Assembly (NCBI RefSeq): GCF_014202345.1
Contig: NZ_JACHGO010000005.1
Location: 62,001 to 126,000, forward strand
Length of the DNA stretch: 64,000 nt
Source: Desulfovibrio intestinalis
Lineage (GTDB): Bacteria > Desulfobacterota > Desulfovibrionia > Desulfovibrionales > Desulfovibrionaceae
Direction: 5' to 3'
Position 1 is the first letter of the stretch; every line of letters begins with the position of its first letter. This document shows, piece by piece, positions 16,142 to 60,990 of this stretch. The notes below the pieces were generated by a model. The model worked only from the letters and a program-made list of their open reading frames with translations, was not told where the DNA came from and did no database searches. The translations under genes and the position numbers were made by a program.

Positions 16142-17038
16142 GTGATGATGCCAGTACCCCGGATGAAGGAACTTTTGCGCGAACGCGGGCAAATGGTGGA
16201 GTCCTATCTTGCCACCTGTTTTGACGGGCGTCCCATTCCACAACGTCTCAAGGATTCCATGCAGTACAGCCTTCAGGCTGGTGGCAAACGTTTGCGCCCT
16301 GTGCTCTGTTTGAGCACGGCGGCCATGTGCGGGCTGCCCCTGCAAGACACTCTGCCCTTTGCATCGGCCATTGAAATGATTCACACCTATTCTTTGGTGC
16401 ACGATGACCTTCCGGCTATGGACGATGACGATTTGCGGCGTGGCAAGCCTTCAAACCACAAGGCTTTTGACGAAGCTACTGCCATACTTGCCGGTGACGG
16501 TCTGCTGACAGATGCTTTTTTGATGATGTGCCGCAGCCCGTTGGCTCCGCCGCGTGTATTGCGTGCCGTTGGCGAGCTGGCGCTTGCTGCTGGCTCTTCA
16601 GGCATGGTGGGCGGGCAGGAATGGGACATGATATTTACCGGAAAAGCCGATATAGCCCTTGAAGAGCTGAAAGGCATCCACGCAATGAAGACTGGCGCGC
16701 TACTGCGGGCATCCTGCGTGTGCGGAGCCATGCTGGCCGGGGCTTCCGACGAAGAGCTGGCAGCTATCGGCTCTTACGGCGCAGCCTTGGGCGTTGCCTT
16801 CCAGATCGCCGACGATATTCTTGATGTGGTGGCGGATACCGCCACGCTTGGCAAGCCTGTGGGCAGCGATGTGGTTCAGGGCAAAAAGACCTATCCTGCT
16901 TTGCTGGGACTCGAGAAGAGCCGCGCCCTGGCGCAGGATCAAGCCGAAGTTGCCAAGGCCGCTCTTGCCGCGTTCAGCGGCCCGGAAGCGGAGTTTTTAC
17001 TTGCTCTGGCCGAGTATACGGTCAATAGGGCGGCCTGA
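16142..17038 (+). CDS. ispA: geranyl/farnesyl diphosphate synthase
   Basis: 298 residues of the trans-prenyl diphosphate synthase family. The first aspartate-rich motif is D-D-L-P-A-M-D-D-D-D-L-R-R-G (about 87-100) and the second is D-D-I-L-D (about 223); both bind the Mg-diphosphate groups. It condenses IPP with DMAPP and GPP to FPP, the precursor of undecaprenyl phosphate and quinones. The GTG at 16142 is 8 nt after AGGAGG (16128-16133); ATGs follow at 16145 and 16148, so the exact start is uncertain by two codons. dxs begins 1 nt after its stop. Confidence 0.95.
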   Translation: MMMPVPRMKELLRERGQMVESYLATCFDGRPIPQRLKDSMQYSLQAGGKRLRPVLCLSTAAMCGLPLQDTLPFASAIEMIHTYSLVHDDLPAMDDDDLRRGKPSNHKAFDEATAILAGDGLLTDAFLMMCRSPLAPPRVLRAVGELALAAGSSGMVGGQEWDMIFTGKADIALEELKGIHAMKTGALLRASCVCGAMLAGASDEELAAIGSYGAALGVAFQIADDILDVVADTATLGKPVGSDVVQGKKTYPALLGLEKSRALAQDQAEVAKAALAAFSGPEAEFLLALAEYTVNRAA

Positions 17039-17039
17039 T

Positions 17040-19052
17040 ATGTTTGATGCTCCCAAAATGCCAACGCCTGCTGATTTAGGCGCGGATGGGCAAAAACCGG
17101 ACAGGGCCGAAACAGCCCCTGTAGAGCAAGCTCTTTTGCAAGATGTTCTTCAAGCTGAACCTTATGTTTCGCTTTTGGACAGCATTGAGCGCCCTTCACA
17201 ATTGGGTGAAATGAGCGAGCCCCAGCTTGAGCTGTTGGCCGCAGAAGTGCGCCAGCGGATTATCGAGGTGGTTTCGCGTACTGGCGGGCACCTTGCCCCT
17301 TCGTTGGGGGTGGTGGAGCTGACGCTGGCTCTTCTTTCAACTTTCAATATTGAAAAAGACAAGCTCGTGTGGGATGTGGGGCATCAGGCATATGCCCACA
17401 AGCTTCTCACAGGCCGAGCTCGCCAGTTTGATACCTTGCGCACCTTTGGTGGGATTTCGGGCTTTCCGCGTATGGCTGAAAGCCCTTACGACCACTTTGG
17501 CGTAGGGCATTCCTCCACGTCCATATCCGCTGCTTTGGGCATGGCATTGGCCCGCGATCTTTCCGGGCTCAGGCATCATGTGATTGCCGTTATTGGTGAC
17601 GGCTCCCTGACTGCCGGTGAAGCCTTTGAAGGCCTCAATCTGGCCGGGCATATGGGGAGGCGGCTCATTGTGGTGCTCAACGACAATGAAATGTCCATTT
17701 CGCCAAACGTGGGAGCGCTTTCATTATTCCTGAGCCGCACCCTGTCGCGGCGCTGGGTACGGCAAACCCGCAAGGAAGTGCTCAACTTTTTGCGGTCCAT
17801 ACCCCGCATTGGTCAAAAACTGGCCGTTTACGCCATGCGCGGTGAGTGGAGCTTCAAGTCGTTTTTCACCCCCGGCATGTTGTTTGAAGCTTTTCGTTTC
17901 AACTACATCGGCCCTGTAGACGGGCACGATCTCGGGAGCTTGCGCCGTCATTTACAAATGGCTGCGGCTGTGGAAGACGGCCCGGTGCTGCTGCATGTAC
18001 GCACCCAAAAGGGTAAAGGCTACGCGCCTGCAGAAAAAAATCCAACGCTATATCACGGTGTTGGCCTATTCACCCCAGAAACGGGACAACCTGTTCAGTC
18101 TACAGCCAAGGTGCCGTCCTTTACAGGTATATTCAGTAAAACCCTTGTGGAACTGGCTGAAAAAGACAAGAGAATTATCGCCATCACTGCTGCCATGCCG
18201 GAAGGAACCGGAACCGACAGCTTTAGGGAGCGCTTTCCAGATCGGTTTGTGGACGTGGGCATCTGTGAGCAACATGCAGTAACGTTTGCAGCCGGCCTTG
18301 CCAGCCAGGGTTACCGTCCTGCTTTGGCCATTTATTCCACCTTCCTTCAGCGGTCTTACGATCAGGTGGTGCACGATGTCTGTATCCAGAATCTGCCTGT
18401 CACCCTTTGCGTGGACCGCGCCGGGCTTGTGGGAGAAGACGGGGCCACCCATCATGGCGCTTTTGACATCGCTTACTTGCGGCATATTCCACAGATAAGC
18501 CTGCTGTCTCCTCGTGATGAAGACATGTTGCGCCACTGTTTGTATACGTCGCTCAACCACGACGGCCCCTGCGCTTTGCGTTACCCGAGGGGAGCAGGAT
18601 TTGGCGTTCCGCTGGATGGCTTGCCGCGTCTTTTGACTCCCGGCAGAGGCGAAGTACTTCAAGACGGTGAGGGCATTGCAATTGTCGCTGTGGGCAGCCG
18701 GGTTCATCCTGCGCTTGAGGCAGCTGCGCAAGCTGAGCAGGTTCTTGGTATCCGCCCGCTGGTTTTTGATCCCATATGGCTCAAGCCTTTGCCTCAGGAA
18801 CAACTTGCCACCATTGCCCGCCGCTTTGACCGTATTCTTTTCGTGGAAGAAGGTGTGCTGGCCGGTGGCTTTGCTTCAGCAGTGCTGGAGTTCTATGCAG
18901 ATAACGGCCTCATGCACGGGCAGAAAATCAAACGCTTGGGATTGCCCGACAGCTTTGTGGAGCACGGCAGCCAGTTGCGCTTGCGCGAACTGGTTGGACT
19001 TCGCACCAAAAATATCGCCGAGGCCATCGTCGAACTGGCAAAGCAGAAATAG
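17040..19052 (+). CDS. dxs: 1-deoxy-D-xylulose-5-phosphate synthase
   Basis: The first MEP-pathway enzyme: pyruvate and glyceraldehyde 3-phosphate give DXP with thiamine diphosphate. The 670-residue protein is about 40 longer than usual because of an N-terminal extension from the ATG at 17040; the family part starts near S-L-L-D-S-I-E-R-P (about residue 42). The catalytic region G-H-Q-A-Y-A-H-K, the TPP motif G-D-G-S-L-T-A-G-E...N-D-N-E-M-S-I-S (about 185-218) and the Glu in C-E-Q-H-A-V (about 408) are all present. Last gene of the run, followed by a terminator at 19078. Confidence 0.96.
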   Translation: MFDAPKMPTPADLGADGQKPDRAETAPVEQALLQDVLQAEPYVSLLDSIERPSQLGEMSEPQLELLAAEVRQRIIEVVSRTGGHLAPSLGVVELTLALLSTFNIEKDKLVWDVGHQAYAHKLLTGRARQFDTLRTFGGISGFPRMAESPYDHFGVGHSSTSISAALGMALARDLSGLRHHVIAVIGDGSLTAGEAFEGLNLAGHMGRRLIVVLNDNEMSISPNVGALSLFLSRTLSRRWVRQTRKEVLNFLRSIPRIGQKLAVYAMRGEWSFKSFFTPGMLFEAFRFNYIGPVDGHDLGSLRRHLQMAAAVEDGPVLLHVRTQKGKGYAPAEKNPTLYHGVGLFTPETGQPVQSTAKVPSFTGIFSKTLVELAEKDKRIIAITAAMPEGTGTDSFRERFPDRFVDVGICEQHAVTFAAGLASQGYRPALAIYSTFLQRSYDQVVHDVCIQNLPVTLCVDRAGLVGEDGATHHGAFDIAYLRHIPQISLLSPRDEDMLRHCLYTSLNHDGPCALRYPRGAGFGVPLDGLPRLLTPGRGEVLQDGEGIAIVAVGSRVHPALEAAAQAEQVLGIRPLVFDPIWLKPLPQEQLATIARRFDRILFVEEGVLAGGFASAVLEFYADNGLMHGQKIKRLGLPDSFVEHGSQLRLRELVGLRTKNIAEAIVELAKQK

Positions 19053-58541: not shown

Positions 58542-58925
58542 TTACGATATGGAAATTCTGCGCACCAGCTCTTCTGCAAGCATTCGGGTTGGGAGTTGCC
58601 GCAACACCTTTTCTTTGGCTTTGTAATCTGCCTCTTCATCCTCCGTTTTATACAGCGGCCGTATGGGAGAAAAAGAAACAAAAAGCGGGCCGTTGCCAGT
58701 TAATATCCATTCCGGGTTGGCACAGTTAAGCCGCATGAGAACAATCAGCCAATTGGCCGGGATACTTCCGCGCCGCTTCGCATCAGAAATGGAAGACTGT
58801 TTGACGCCTAGCAGGTCAGCCAGCTCTACCTGGGTTCTTTTGCCAGTAATAAGCTTTATGCGCCCCATTTGTTCGTCAAAATTTTGATTATCCACCCGCC
58901 CCTCACAATATTTGATTATCATCAC
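58542..58925 (-). CDS. phage CI-repressor-like helix-turn-helix protein
   Basis: 127 residues from the ATG at 58925; a GTG at 58895 or an ATG at 58868 are alternative starts. The helix-turn-helix spans about 30-55: T-Q-V-E-L-A-D-L-L-G-V-K-Q-S-S-I-S-D-A-K. It is followed by W-L-I-V-L-M-R-L-N-C-A-N-P-E-W-I-L-T-G-N-G-P, the hallmark of the Bac_CI repressor domain. No C-terminal S24 peptidase-like domain is present, so it is not a full LexA-type repressor and would not be self-cleaved. It is divergent from another regulator, with palindromes between, like a phage switch remnant. Confidence 0.82.
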   Translation of the reverse strand: MMIIKYCEGRVDNQNFDEQMGRIKLITGKRTQVELADLLGVKQSSISDAKRRGSIPANWLIVLMRLNCANPEWILTGNGPLFVSFSPIRPLYKTEDEEADYKAKEKVLRQLPTRMLAEELVRRISIS

Positions 58926-58933
58926 GACCTACC

Positions 58934-58960
58934 ATTGATAGTCAATCGAACTACAATAGT
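58934..58960. promoter_or_regulatory. two palindromes in the divergent regulator spacer (candidate operators)
   Basis: ATTGA-TAG-TCAAT (58934-58946) and ACTA-CAA-TAGT (58950-58960) lie next to each other in the 72-nt spacer between two divergent regulators. Both have the 3-nt centre expected of a dimer site. Confidence 0.5.
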
Positions 58961-58997
58961 GGGTCAATTTTGTAAAGGGGCGCTGTATCCAGATGGC

Positions 58998-59261
58998 ATG
59001 AAGAAGAACTTTGATGAAGATAAATTGGCGAAAACTTTCATGCCTGCGGTAATTCGAAGGTATCGTGATGCTGCTGGCTTGTCACAGCAAGAACTTGCAG
59101 ATCAGGTCGGCATTTCCAAGAGCTACATATCCTCACTGGAACTCGGCTACAGAGCGCCCAACCTGAATCTGCTGGTGAAAATTGCCCAAAGTTTAGGCGT
59201 AGCGCCAGGAGAAATGGTTGACGCAATGGTTGCTGATGCAGAAAAATCTTGTGATTATTGA
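58998..59261 (+). CDS. XRE family transcriptional regulator
   Basis: 87 residues from the ATG at 58998; no good ribosome site is near (AAAGGGG is 17 nt away), so the start could differ. The helix-turn-helix is about residues 18-55 (Y-R-D-A-A-G-L-S-Q-Q-E-L-A-D-Q-V-G-I-S-K, then Y-I-S-S-L-E-L-G-Y-R-A-P-N), a classic XRE/Cro-like domain with nothing else attached. It faces the CI-like gene, and an inverted repeat and the left tRNA-Pro arm follow downstream. It is probably left over from a mobile element. Confidence 0.82.
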   Translation: MKKNFDEDKLAKTFMPAVIRRYRDAAGLSQQELADQVGISKSYISSLELGYRAPNLNLLVKIAQSLGVAPGEMVDAMVADAEKSCDY

Positions 59262-59285: not shown

Positions 59286-59290
59286 ATAGG

Positions 59291-59319
59291 TTTACAGACG
59301 GGGCAGTTCAGGGTAGTTA
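59291..59319 (+). promoter_or_regulatory. promoter of left tRNA-Pro
   Basis: TTTACA (59291-59296), 17-nt spacer, TAGTTA (59314-59319), 12 nt before the tRNA. The right copy has the same -10 region and spacing with TTGACA as -35, which supports both. Confidence 0.5.
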
Positions 59320-59331
59320 TCTCTTTCGTGT

Positions 59332-59408
59332 CGGGATGTAGCGCAGCCTGGGAGCGCACTTGAATGGGGTTCAAGGGGTCGAAGGTTCAAATCCTTTCAT
59401 CCCGACCA
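59332..59408 (+). tRNA. tRNA-Pro (GGG), left copy
   Basis: 77 nt: acceptor CGGGATG/CATCCCG, D arm GCGC/GCGC, anticodon stem CTTGA/TCAAG around ATGGGGT (anticodon GGG, reads CCC), T arm GAAGG-TTCAAAT-CCTTT and encoded ACCA. All stems pair, so it should be functional. It is identical to the copy at 60860-60936 on the other strand. Confidence 0.96.
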
Positions 59409-59416
59409 GAGATTTG

Positions 59417-59450
59417 AAGGGAATTCATGGAAACATGAATTCCCTTTTTT
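59417..59450 (+). terminator. terminator of left tRNA-Pro
   Basis: A perfect 13-bp stem (59417-59429 with 59434-59446) closed by a GAAA tetraloop and followed by T to 59450. Confidence 0.92.
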
Positions 59451-59466
59451 CACTATAACTCTGAAA

Positions 59467-59520
59467 CACGCTTGAATGGCATTCAAGAGGTCAAGACTTC
59501 AATTCTCTTCAGCTCCGCCA
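59467..59520 (+). pseudogene. tRNA 3'-half relic, left arm
   Basis: The sequence looks like the second half of a tRNA: anticodon stem CTTGA/TCAAG (59471-59475, 59483-59487) around ATGGCAT, a T arm with TTCAATT, an acceptor 3' strand CAGCTCC and GCCA at 59517-59520. No matching 5' acceptor strand (GGAGCTG) or D arm lies upstream. The apparent anticodon would be GGC. It aligns well with the 3' half of the neighbouring tRNA-Pro, but the acceptor differs. Confidence 0.7.
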
Positions 59521-59531
59521 TGTAGGTAATT

Positions 59532-59568
59532 AAAACCCCCGACCATTTTTCAATGATCGGGGGTTTTT
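59532..59568. terminator. second hairpin terminator in left arm
   Basis: AAAACCCCCGA (59532-59542) pairs with TCGGGGGTTTT (59557-59567), with T and A runs on both sides. Confidence 0.85.
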
Positions 59569-59636
59569 GGTGTGCCTTGGTTGGGGATTGCCCACAGCAG
59601 AGAAGATCAAGTGAGTTTGAGATTGAAATAATATCC

Positions 59637-59642
59637 TATAAT
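59637..59642 (+). promoter_or_regulatory. consensus -10 box before the enclosed gene
   Basis: A perfect TATAAT lies 47 nt before the ATG at 59689, inside the AT-rich stretch between the arm and the gene. A -35 is not clear (TTGAGA is 14 nt away). The gene therefore seems to bring its own promoter inside the repeat arms. Confidence 0.4.
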
Positions 59643-59688
59643 TATTAATAGCAGAACATTAAAAGCTAAATTTAGCACGGAGTACACC

Positions 59689-60666
59689 ATGCACCTACTT
59701 AATACCGTCTCATTACTGACACCAGATGGATATTTTTATAAGGCTGAAAACTGTCACGGTGGACTTTTGCCTGGTAGCGCTGTGAACATAGCCCCTCCAA
59801 AACTTAAGCCCTATGAATCAGCCAGAATCAATGAAGCAAAAAATGATTGGATTATTGAGGAAGACCTTAACGGATTACATGCTCCTGCCTTTGATTTTAA
59901 TGAAGTGGATCAGGAGTCTTTTATTTTTGATGATAGGTTTTATACGCATATTCCAGACGTTAAATACTCCTTAGCAACACTTAGAGCATTGTCACGACAT
60001 GCTGTTCACAGAGTTCGAACAAAAAATGGTGATAGATTTTTCAATTTTCGCGGAATGGAAACACAAAATCGCTTGATTTATCTTAATAATAACCTAAATA
60101 TAATTGCCAAAGAAACTGTTGCTGCATATAATTTTTTATATAATTCCACTGGAGTACCATGCGATAATTATCTGAATATTCTTTCGAAAACAAAGTTTGG
60201 AATAGAACAGTCAATATATTGCATGAAATTGTCTTTTGATTACCTTATCCAAATAGCATCTTATTTCCTTTTCAAAAAACGAAAATTAGATTCACTAGGC
60301 GCATTTTTGAAACTTTTGGGGAAAAACAACGATAATGCCCTAAAAGTAAAAGAATTAATATTCAGCCGCTATACAGATAAGAATTTTAATTTTTTAAAAT
60401 TTTTGAATGGCATTGCAAACTGCTACAAGCATTCATACCTCCAAGCATTTGCAGATTGCCTTCATGGGAAAGGAGTTCCTAGCGTTATAACTGTCCACTT
60501 GGAAAAAAACGACGTTATAACTGTTTCAAATGGTCAATATCTGCAACTTATCTATGGTTTTCATGTTAGTATGGCTGAATCTATGAGTTCAATAAAAGAT
60601 ACGCTATCAGAGGACATACGCTGTTACTTTGAACAGAGGGAAAATGACCCAATGGGTTTTATCTAA
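59689..60666 (+). CDS. unknown AT-rich gene enclosed by inverted tRNA-Pro arms
   Basis: 325 residues with GGAG 6 nt before the ATG, clearly AT-rich by eye compared with the housekeeping genes around it. I do not recognise a family. The N-terminal ~65 residues (P-P-K-L-K-P-Y-E-S-A-R-I-N-E-A, then D-W-I-I-E-E-D-L-N-G) recall small phage tail-fibre segments. The rest is mostly helical, with Y-L-F-K-like aromatic helices and F-L-N-G-I-A-N-C-Y-K-H-S near 238-249, which weakly recalls the N/R-x-x-K-H ends of HEPN-type proteins; neither resemblance is firm. No signal peptide or membrane anchor is seen. It is complete, has its own -10 box, and ends 4 nt before the right arm, whose hairpin at 60712-60748 can terminate it. 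Confidence 0.8.
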   Translation: MHLLNTVSLLTPDGYFYKAENCHGGLLPGSAVNIAPPKLKPYESARINEAKNDWIIEEDLNGLHAPAFDFNEVDQESFIFDDRFYTHIPDVKYSLATLRALSRHAVHRVRTKNGDRFFNFRGMETQNRLIYLNNNLNIIAKETVAAYNFLYNSTGVPCDNYLNILSKTKFGIEQSIYCMKLSFDYLIQIASYFLFKKRKLDSLGAFLKLLGKNNDNALKVKELIFSRYTDKNFNFLKFLNGIANCYKHSYLQAFADCLHGKGVPSVITVHLEKNDVITVSNGQYLQLIYGFHVSMAESMSSIKDTLSEDIRCYFEQRENDPMGFI

Positions 60667-60711
60667 TTTCCTTGATCTTTTCTGCTGTGGGCAATCCCCA
60701 ACTAAGCACCC

Positions 60712-60748
60712 AAAACCCCCGAACTCTATGTGATGATCGGGGGGTTTT
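60712..60748. terminator. second hairpin terminator in right arm
   Basis: AAAACCCCCGA (60712-60722) pairs with TCGGGGGGTTTT (60737-60748). It can end the enclosed gene on the plus strand and the tRNA relic on the minus strand. Confidence 0.85.
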
Positions 60749-60756
60749 AAACTTTC

Positions 60757-60815
60757 TGGTGGAGCTGGACAGGATTGAACTGACGGCCTCTTCAATGACA
60801 TTTAAGTGCGCTAAA
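60757..60815 (-). pseudogene. tRNA 3'-half relic, right arm
   Basis: On the minus strand it ends in CAGCTCCACCA (60767-60757), preceded by a TTCAATC loop with a T stem of one mismatch, and by a decayed anticodon arm around ATGTCAT (apparent anticodon GTC). No 5' half is present. It is the counterpart of the relic at 59467 but differs at many positions, so both have been drifting. Confidence 0.65.
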
Positions 60816-60817
60816 CG

Positions 60818-60851
60818 AGAAAAGGGAATTCATGTTTCCATGAATTCCCTT
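60818..60851 (-). terminator. terminator of right tRNA-Pro
   Basis: The same 13-bp stem and GAAA loop as in the left arm (60851-60839 with 60834-60822 on the minus strand), followed by four T instead of six. Confidence 0.9.
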
Positions 60852-60859
60852 CAAATCTC

Positions 60860-60936
60860 TGGTCGGGATGAAAGGATTTGAACCTTCGACCCCTTGAACC
60901 CCATTCAAGTGCGCTCCCAGGCTGCGCTACATCCCG
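60860..60936 (-). tRNA. tRNA-Pro (GGG), right copy
   Basis: Identical over all 77 nt to the tRNA at 59332-59408, on the opposite strand, with anticodon GGG and encoded ACCA. Confidence 0.96.
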
Positions 60937-60948
60937 ACGCGAGAGAGA

Positions 60949-60977
60949 TAACTACGCTGAACCACCTGGTGTGTCAA
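60949..60977 (-). promoter_or_regulatory. promoter of right tRNA-Pro
   Basis: On the minus strand TTGACA (60977-60972) and TAGTTA (60954-60949) are 17 nt apart. The -35 lies outside the arm and differs from the left copy (TTTACA), while the -10 region is shared. Confidence 0.55.
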
Positions 60978-60990
60978 CACATTTTCTAAA

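Follow-up and report, generated by a model that had tools for sequence, protein, structure and literature searches.

Facing tRNA-Pro genes and the gene between them

The window (the whole 64,000-nt stretch of Desulfovibrio intestinalis DNA that was analysed) contained two facing and identical tRNA-Pro(GGG) genes of 77 nt each. ARAGORN placed them at 59332-59408 (+) and 60860-60936 (-), and the Rfam tRNA score was 59.6 bits for each. The right gene adjoins glgB, a neighbourhood conserved in relatives, and the left one is a second, non-glgB copy. Both lie in outer inverted arms (59290-59451 and 60817-60978; 162 nt, 94% complementary), with inner inverted blocks further in at 59576-59620 (+) and 60662-60706 (-) (45 nt, 87% complementary). 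The arm similarity was far above chance: the ungapped match score was 134, and none of 30 shuffles scored above 10. The initial annotation, made from the sequence alone, had described a gene enclosed by inverted arms with a tRNA-Pro gene in each, and this was confirmed by ARAGORN and Rfam, the repeat search and the shuffles.

From outside to inside, the sequence and the arm alignment showed in each arm a diverged promoter, tRNA-Pro, a terminator hairpin (T1), a tRNA-Ala(GGC) 3' half, a second terminator hairpin (T2) and the inner block, which is the order of -10, tRNA, GAAA-loop hairpin, tRNA 3' half, second hairpin and inner block that had been noted before. The promoters, read from the sequence and homologous in the arm alignment, lie at 59291-59319 (+; -35 TTTACA 59291-59296, 17-nt spacer, -10 TAGTTA 59314-59319) and at 60949-60977 (-; -10 TAGTTA 60949-60954, -35 TTGACA 60972-60977). 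The earlier placing of each -35 outside the arm did not wholly hold, since a diverged similarity extends to both. From the anticodon loop onward, the tRNA-Pro 3' halves (59364-59408, + and 60860-60904, -) were assigned in the junction table as the left and right outer ends of the cassette. The hairpins, delimited by repeat search and sequence, were T1 at 59417-59446 (+, with a GAAA loop) and 60822-60851 (-), and T2 at 59532-59568 (+) and 60712-60747 (-).

The 3' halves inside the arms had been taken for tRNA-Pro relics, and this proved wrong. They derive from another tRNA and match the anticodon-to-CCA half of the same genome's intact tRNA-Ala(GGC) (C6), and they are inverted relative to each other. 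The left half (59476-59520, +; repeat search, relic comparison, junction table) belongs to a foreign lineage and resembles that of G026 L045, with which it shares the CCATGTAGGTAATTAAAA tail, while the right half (60758-60801, -; sequence, relic comparison, junction table) is decayed and of the host's own type. The two Ala halves are thus of two lineages, clearly diverged from each other, and the tRNA-Pro parts are identical. The right Ala core is preceded by AGCGCACTTAA, which nearly matches the last bases of the tRNA-Pro 5' half. This is a hint of an earlier crossover between tRNA-Pro and tRNA-Ala, although the sequence could instead imitate an anticodon stem.

The sole cargo between the arms is a single AT-rich gene (325 aa) at 59689-60666 (+), with a GC content of 0.345 against 0.527 for the window and a GC3 of 0.285 against 0.609 for glgB. 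A promoter-like sequence and a ribosome site of its own lie within the arms. The gene was the one ORF found there, it had no family match, and no integrase or transposase-like ORF was found beside it. Searches of the genomes of 100 relatives, of genome contigs, plasmids, phages and viral contigs, and of Pfam, PADLOC and NCBIfam found no relative of the protein. There was no match to a defence family, the one match in the PDB (E 0.53) was not credible, and AlphaFold prediction from the single sequence had a mean pLDDT of 34 and was unusable. By these searches the gene is an orphan, and the company of sister cassettes makes an anti-phage role, or some other accessory one, probable. Two divergent genes, for a CI-type repressor and an Xre protein, border the left tRNA-Pro immediately on its outer side (window 58542-59261) and are possibly what is left of a phage-like element.

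The tRNA-Pro locus in related genomes

The tRNA-Pro gene on the glgB side was conserved beside glgB in many genomes of the genus and is, on the evidence of this neighbourhood, the ancestral copy. A second, inverted tRNA-Pro gene was found about 1.5-18 kb away in G104, G101, G102, G052, G017 and G110, as in the window. In G017, G110 and the genome of the window (G000), the facing pair lies between the bacA/DUF362 side and glgB. The outer sides of G017 and G110 match those of the window (bacA, tRNA-Met and DUF362 on one side, glgB on the other), and the DNA between is unrelated. It had been suggested that tRNA, gene and tRNA might form a composite unit, an idea to be dropped if relatives showed the facing tRNA-Pro pair without the gene as the ancestral state and the gene elsewhere without arms. 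Facing pairs were found in G017 and G110 with other cargo, and the searches above gave no relative of the gene. Because the facing pair recurs with unrelated cargo, the pair and the 325-aa gene are not one unit and the gene is exchangeable cargo. The facing pair is, from the sequence comparison, older than its cargo.

Flank homology, both between the window and G017 at tRNA-Pro and in the tRNA-Ala sets, runs through the tRNA and its terminator and then ends, and arm identity stops at T1 at most tRNA-Pro loci of the relatives. The search in relatives for an empty site and for both orientations was answered in part. No clean empty facing pair was found, the relatives with a single tRNA (L085, L130, L240) having other DNA beside it, and flips of other blocks were seen between species. 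One of these, the OMP+cl8 block at this tRNA-Pro locus, was inverted between G104 and G052. The second tRNA-Pro of G052 (tRNA-Pro2) holds an ordinary element with half sites in direct orientation, that is, a one-of-each segment.

Several minor observations were made around this locus. A block of 15 kb enclosed by the inverted tRNA-Pro genes had opposite orientations in G017 and G110 (L095 3292-17841, glgB first, and L096 2705-18361), with collinear outer flanks, and in G110 it is bounded by IS3-like orfA remnants that form an inverted repeat of 212 bp. This flip was considered as proof of tRNA-driven inversion and was dropped, the IS3-like remnants at both ends being the better cause. Other species of the genus (L086-L093) had tRNA-Pro(GGG) genes grouped in twos or threes, in the same direction or inverted, with varied genes between them. 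An Opa/OmpA-like outer-membrane beta-barrel gene beside tRNA-Pro had opposite orientations depending on the species (L080 5390-6070, L081-L084). In G055 (L130 5844-8108), a 710-aa frame with an integrase-like fragment comes after the tRNA-Met gene next to bacA and perhaps marks another integration site near this locus.

Defence cassettes at tRNA-Ala genes and a small recombinase

Searching with the window arm revealed inverted pairs of the Ala 3' half and terminator elsewhere, and 13 tRNA-Ala(GGC) cassettes were delimited in the window's own genome, G017, G110, G102, G052, G104, G042 and G021. Two further, damaged ones were found in G029 and G026 and are not included in the 13. Each of the 13 starts at the anticodon loop (ATGGCAT) and finishes with an inverted copy, so that a 3' half and terminator stand at both ends. 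The arms are 86-372 bp long and 91-100% identical, and most extend beyond the terminator into cassette-specific sequence.

No cargo DNA was common to any two of the cassettes, and most carried known or candidate defence-family genes. The cargo consisted of HamA and HamB (Hachiman) and an ApeA-like protein in G017, putAbiC and an M78 peptidase in the window's own genome, a Dam-type methylase and PDC-S19 in G110, PDC-M40B in G052, and Xre and M78 in G021. The G042 cassettes carried a type II methylase and nuclease, a reverse transcriptase with Xre, and LmuA/B/C (Lamassu). Ten control proteins gave no comparable defence match; the HD domain of one weakly matched Cas3 models. The G042 array (G042:C1:3100000-3133000, L133 and L134) spans 33 kb between facing tRNA-Ala genes and comprises three cassettes of defence genes and some five copies or fragments of the recombinase gene. 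Its second cassette (L133/L134 junction, array 16284-17430) is retron-like, with a reverse transcriptase (RVT_1) and an Xre regulator. One module of the array, encoding an integrase and a primase-like DUF5906 protein, resembles a replicating satellite.

The order LigB-tRNA-B ... tRNA-A-aminotransferase was kept in G102, G052, G104, G042, G017 and G110, and the middle contained one cassette (G102, G110), two cassettes and a module (G052, G104, G017) or three cassettes (G042). Fixed flanks enclosed completely different cargo in G102, G052 and G042 and in G017 and G110 at tRNA-Ala, and in the window and G017 at tRNA-Pro. G052 and G104 have the central tRNA-Ala module in opposite orientations and the flanks on both sides unchanged. 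Such flips between species do not alone prove a recombinase, and homologous recombination between the arms could suffice.

When the 3' halves were read backwards in the junction table, homology stopped at the anticodon loop, and what stood before the loop was the tRNA 5' half (giving an intact tRNA), a sequence here called the P arm, or another short flank resembling an anticodon stem. In the relatives, the junctions started at the anticodon loop, a known tRNA subsite, with several different P arms. Repeats of the ATATACAAAATGTAT type occur in the P arm, and in G021, G042, G019, G017, G104 and G029 this arm follows immediately downstream of the gene, or a gene remnant, of a small tyrosine recombinase. 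The recombinase has 197 aa, and the copy of the relatives matches Pfam Phage_integrase. The P-type junction pattern gave 14 matches in 7 of the 79 genus genomes and none in a reversed control. Some of the modules between cassettes were P-ended on both sides, the two TR+P ends in G042 agreeing over 1,746 bp at 99.7%, and ordinary one-of-each segments were found as well inside the G042 and G052 arrays. A candidate "palindromic circle" from L043 12533, with 3' half joined to 3' half, was rejected, since it looks like a deletion scar retaining the CTTT of the P arm. The Ala halves of the window sit behind the tRNA-Pro terminators and are without clear P arms. In G000 the small recombinase had no relative above about 30% identity, the matches being distant full-length integrases (24-30%).

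A proposed cassette exchange and its alternatives

As had been pointed out, an inverted pair is not the outcome of plain integration into a tRNA gene and needs another explanation. The locus is read here, with a probability of roughly 0.6, as one resolved state of a recombinase-driven platform on which cassettes are exchanged between two facing tRNA gene copies. In favour of this reading are the tRNA-Ala cassette arms that begin at the anticodon loop and include cassette-specific sequence, the defence cargo, the P arms beside recombinase genes, the P-type junctions, the fixed flanks with swapped cargo, the states with one to three cassettes and the blocks flipped between species. The recombinase would cross over in the 7-bp anticodon loop, and a circle made up of a P-ended recombinase module and one cassette would integrate at either of the facing tRNAs, which would then enclose the incoming cassette, the module and the old cassette in that order. 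A later crossover between two sites or junctions of the same direction would remove the module together with the other cassette, and the result would be an exchanged cassette between two intact tRNA genes. This scheme would account for the states with one, two and three cassettes, and because both ends of a cassette supply a 3' half and a terminator, either orientation would keep and insulate both tRNAs. The 325-aa gene of the window would belong to an older cassette of tRNA-Ala type nested inside tRNA-Pro-type ends. Being single, with decayed Ala halves and no matching recombinase, this cassette is probably now stranded. Certain findings count against the scheme: the comparison of genomes on which it is based showed no circle, excision product or inversion within a culture, the like-ended segments (P-P modules and cassettes with a 3' half at both ends) go beyond simple site-specific integration, the Ala halves of the window lie behind tRNA-Pro terminators with neither clear P arms nor a remaining recombinase gene, the 325-aa protein has no defence match, and at most tRNA-Pro loci of the relatives the arm identity ends at T1. 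The wider proposal is of a natural, recombinase-mediated exchange of defence cassettes in Desulfovibrio, in which two-site elements (a P-ended module plus a cassette ending in 3' halves) dock at facing tRNAs and replace the resident cassette in either orientation with the tRNAs left whole. It is offered tentatively, at somewhat less than even odds.

The arms could also have arisen if one ordinary tRNA element entered both facing tRNAs and an internal deletion left the gene with a truncated inverted copy of the end, in which case the cassette would be a scar and not a two-ended unit. The arms do hold cassette-specific sequence of variable length, one arm of the Hachiman cassette is the real hamA start and the other a damaged inverted copy of it, and an ordinary element with direct half sites exists at tRNA-Pro2 of G052. 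However, this double integration and deletion would have had to happen separately for some fourteen cassettes, and the second cassette of G042 has P arms, not a tRNA, at both ends, and yet perfect arms of 118 bp. Such a history is considered unlikely, though deserving of weight. It is quite improbable that the locus is a plain hotspot, where the facing tRNAs are ancestral and constrained, the genes between them change by homologous recombination in the flanks, and the inverted 3' halves are leftovers of unrelated integrations. The flank homology that stops after tRNA and terminator, the arms that end at the terminator at most tRNA-Pro loci, and the identical tRNA-Pro copies, as expected from conversion or constraint, would all suit a hotspot, but the junctions lie at the anticodon loop beside recombinase genes, and the cassette-specific sequence in the arms is not a product of flank recombination.

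The initial annotation had also raised a switch in which recombination between the arms flips the gene; working in the living strain, it would turn the gene on or off. Inverted sites do flank the gene, and blocks between facing tRNAs were flipped between relatives, so this much of the suggestion stood. The live switch itself found no support: the genome contains no homologue of the recombinase (no relative above about 30% identity), the Ala parts of the arms have diverged, the promoter-like sequence and ribosome site of the gene lie inside the arms, the terminators at the ends would insulate either orientation, and the flip between G017 and G110 is bounded by IS3-like remnants in G110. A working on/off switch in the window today is therefore unsupported by the sequence, and a switch of this kind is regarded as very improbable.

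The proposed exchange of cassettes shares features with several known systems. Integrons exchange small, recombinase-less cargo cassettes at a fixed chromosomal platform, as is proposed here, but here each end of a cassette is a site formed by half of a living tRNA gene and its terminator, and the two ends are inverted. In the yeast 2-micron plasmid, two inverted sites for the FLP recombinase split the element into two flippable segments. Two inverted sites and two flippable segments are likewise present in the proposed scheme, which differs in being integrative, tRNA-targeted and bacterial, with a circular form that is only inferred. The Islander method defines a tRNA island by a tRNA fragment of the same orientation and an integrase, and cases of opposite orientation are rejected and used to estimate false positives (PMC4383910). 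The cassettes resemble such islands in the tRNA target, the anticodon-loop subsite, the 3' half supplied by incoming DNA and the tyrosine recombinase in relatives. They differ in that the fragments are inverted with respect to the tRNA, both ends carry a 3' half, and an integrase is absent. Since Islander requires a same-orientation fragment and an integrase, cassettes of this type would be discarded. The Thermococcus tyrosine integrase Int-pTN3 can invert DNA between opposed tRNA genes (PMC5495485); it likewise combines a tyrosine recombinase with oppositely oriented tRNA genes, but unlike here the result is large archaeal chromosomal inversions, with no defence cassettes and no segments ending in half tRNAs. 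A literature search of open-licence papers returned no description of defence cassettes ended by tRNA halves.

If the proposal is true, it would describe a type of mobile element outside integrons, ordinary tRNA islands and transposons, and would explain the turnover of defence genes at fixed chromosomal sites without damage to the host tRNA genes. Inverted 3' tRNA halves with terminators, beginning at the anticodon loop, would serve as a search rule for defence genes not yet recognised, with the 325-aa orphan as a candidate example. This very arrangement is rejected by at least one standard island finder, and such elements may therefore be missed elsewhere.

Outside the genus, no tRNA halves or matching inverted arms were found beside genes of the small recombinase family. 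Small tyrosine recombinases (about 180-200 aa) related to the 197-aa one were widespread in Desulfobacterota and Bacilli (L155-L234), and several Desulfovibrionales had a full-length integrase gene directly after the small recombinase gene.
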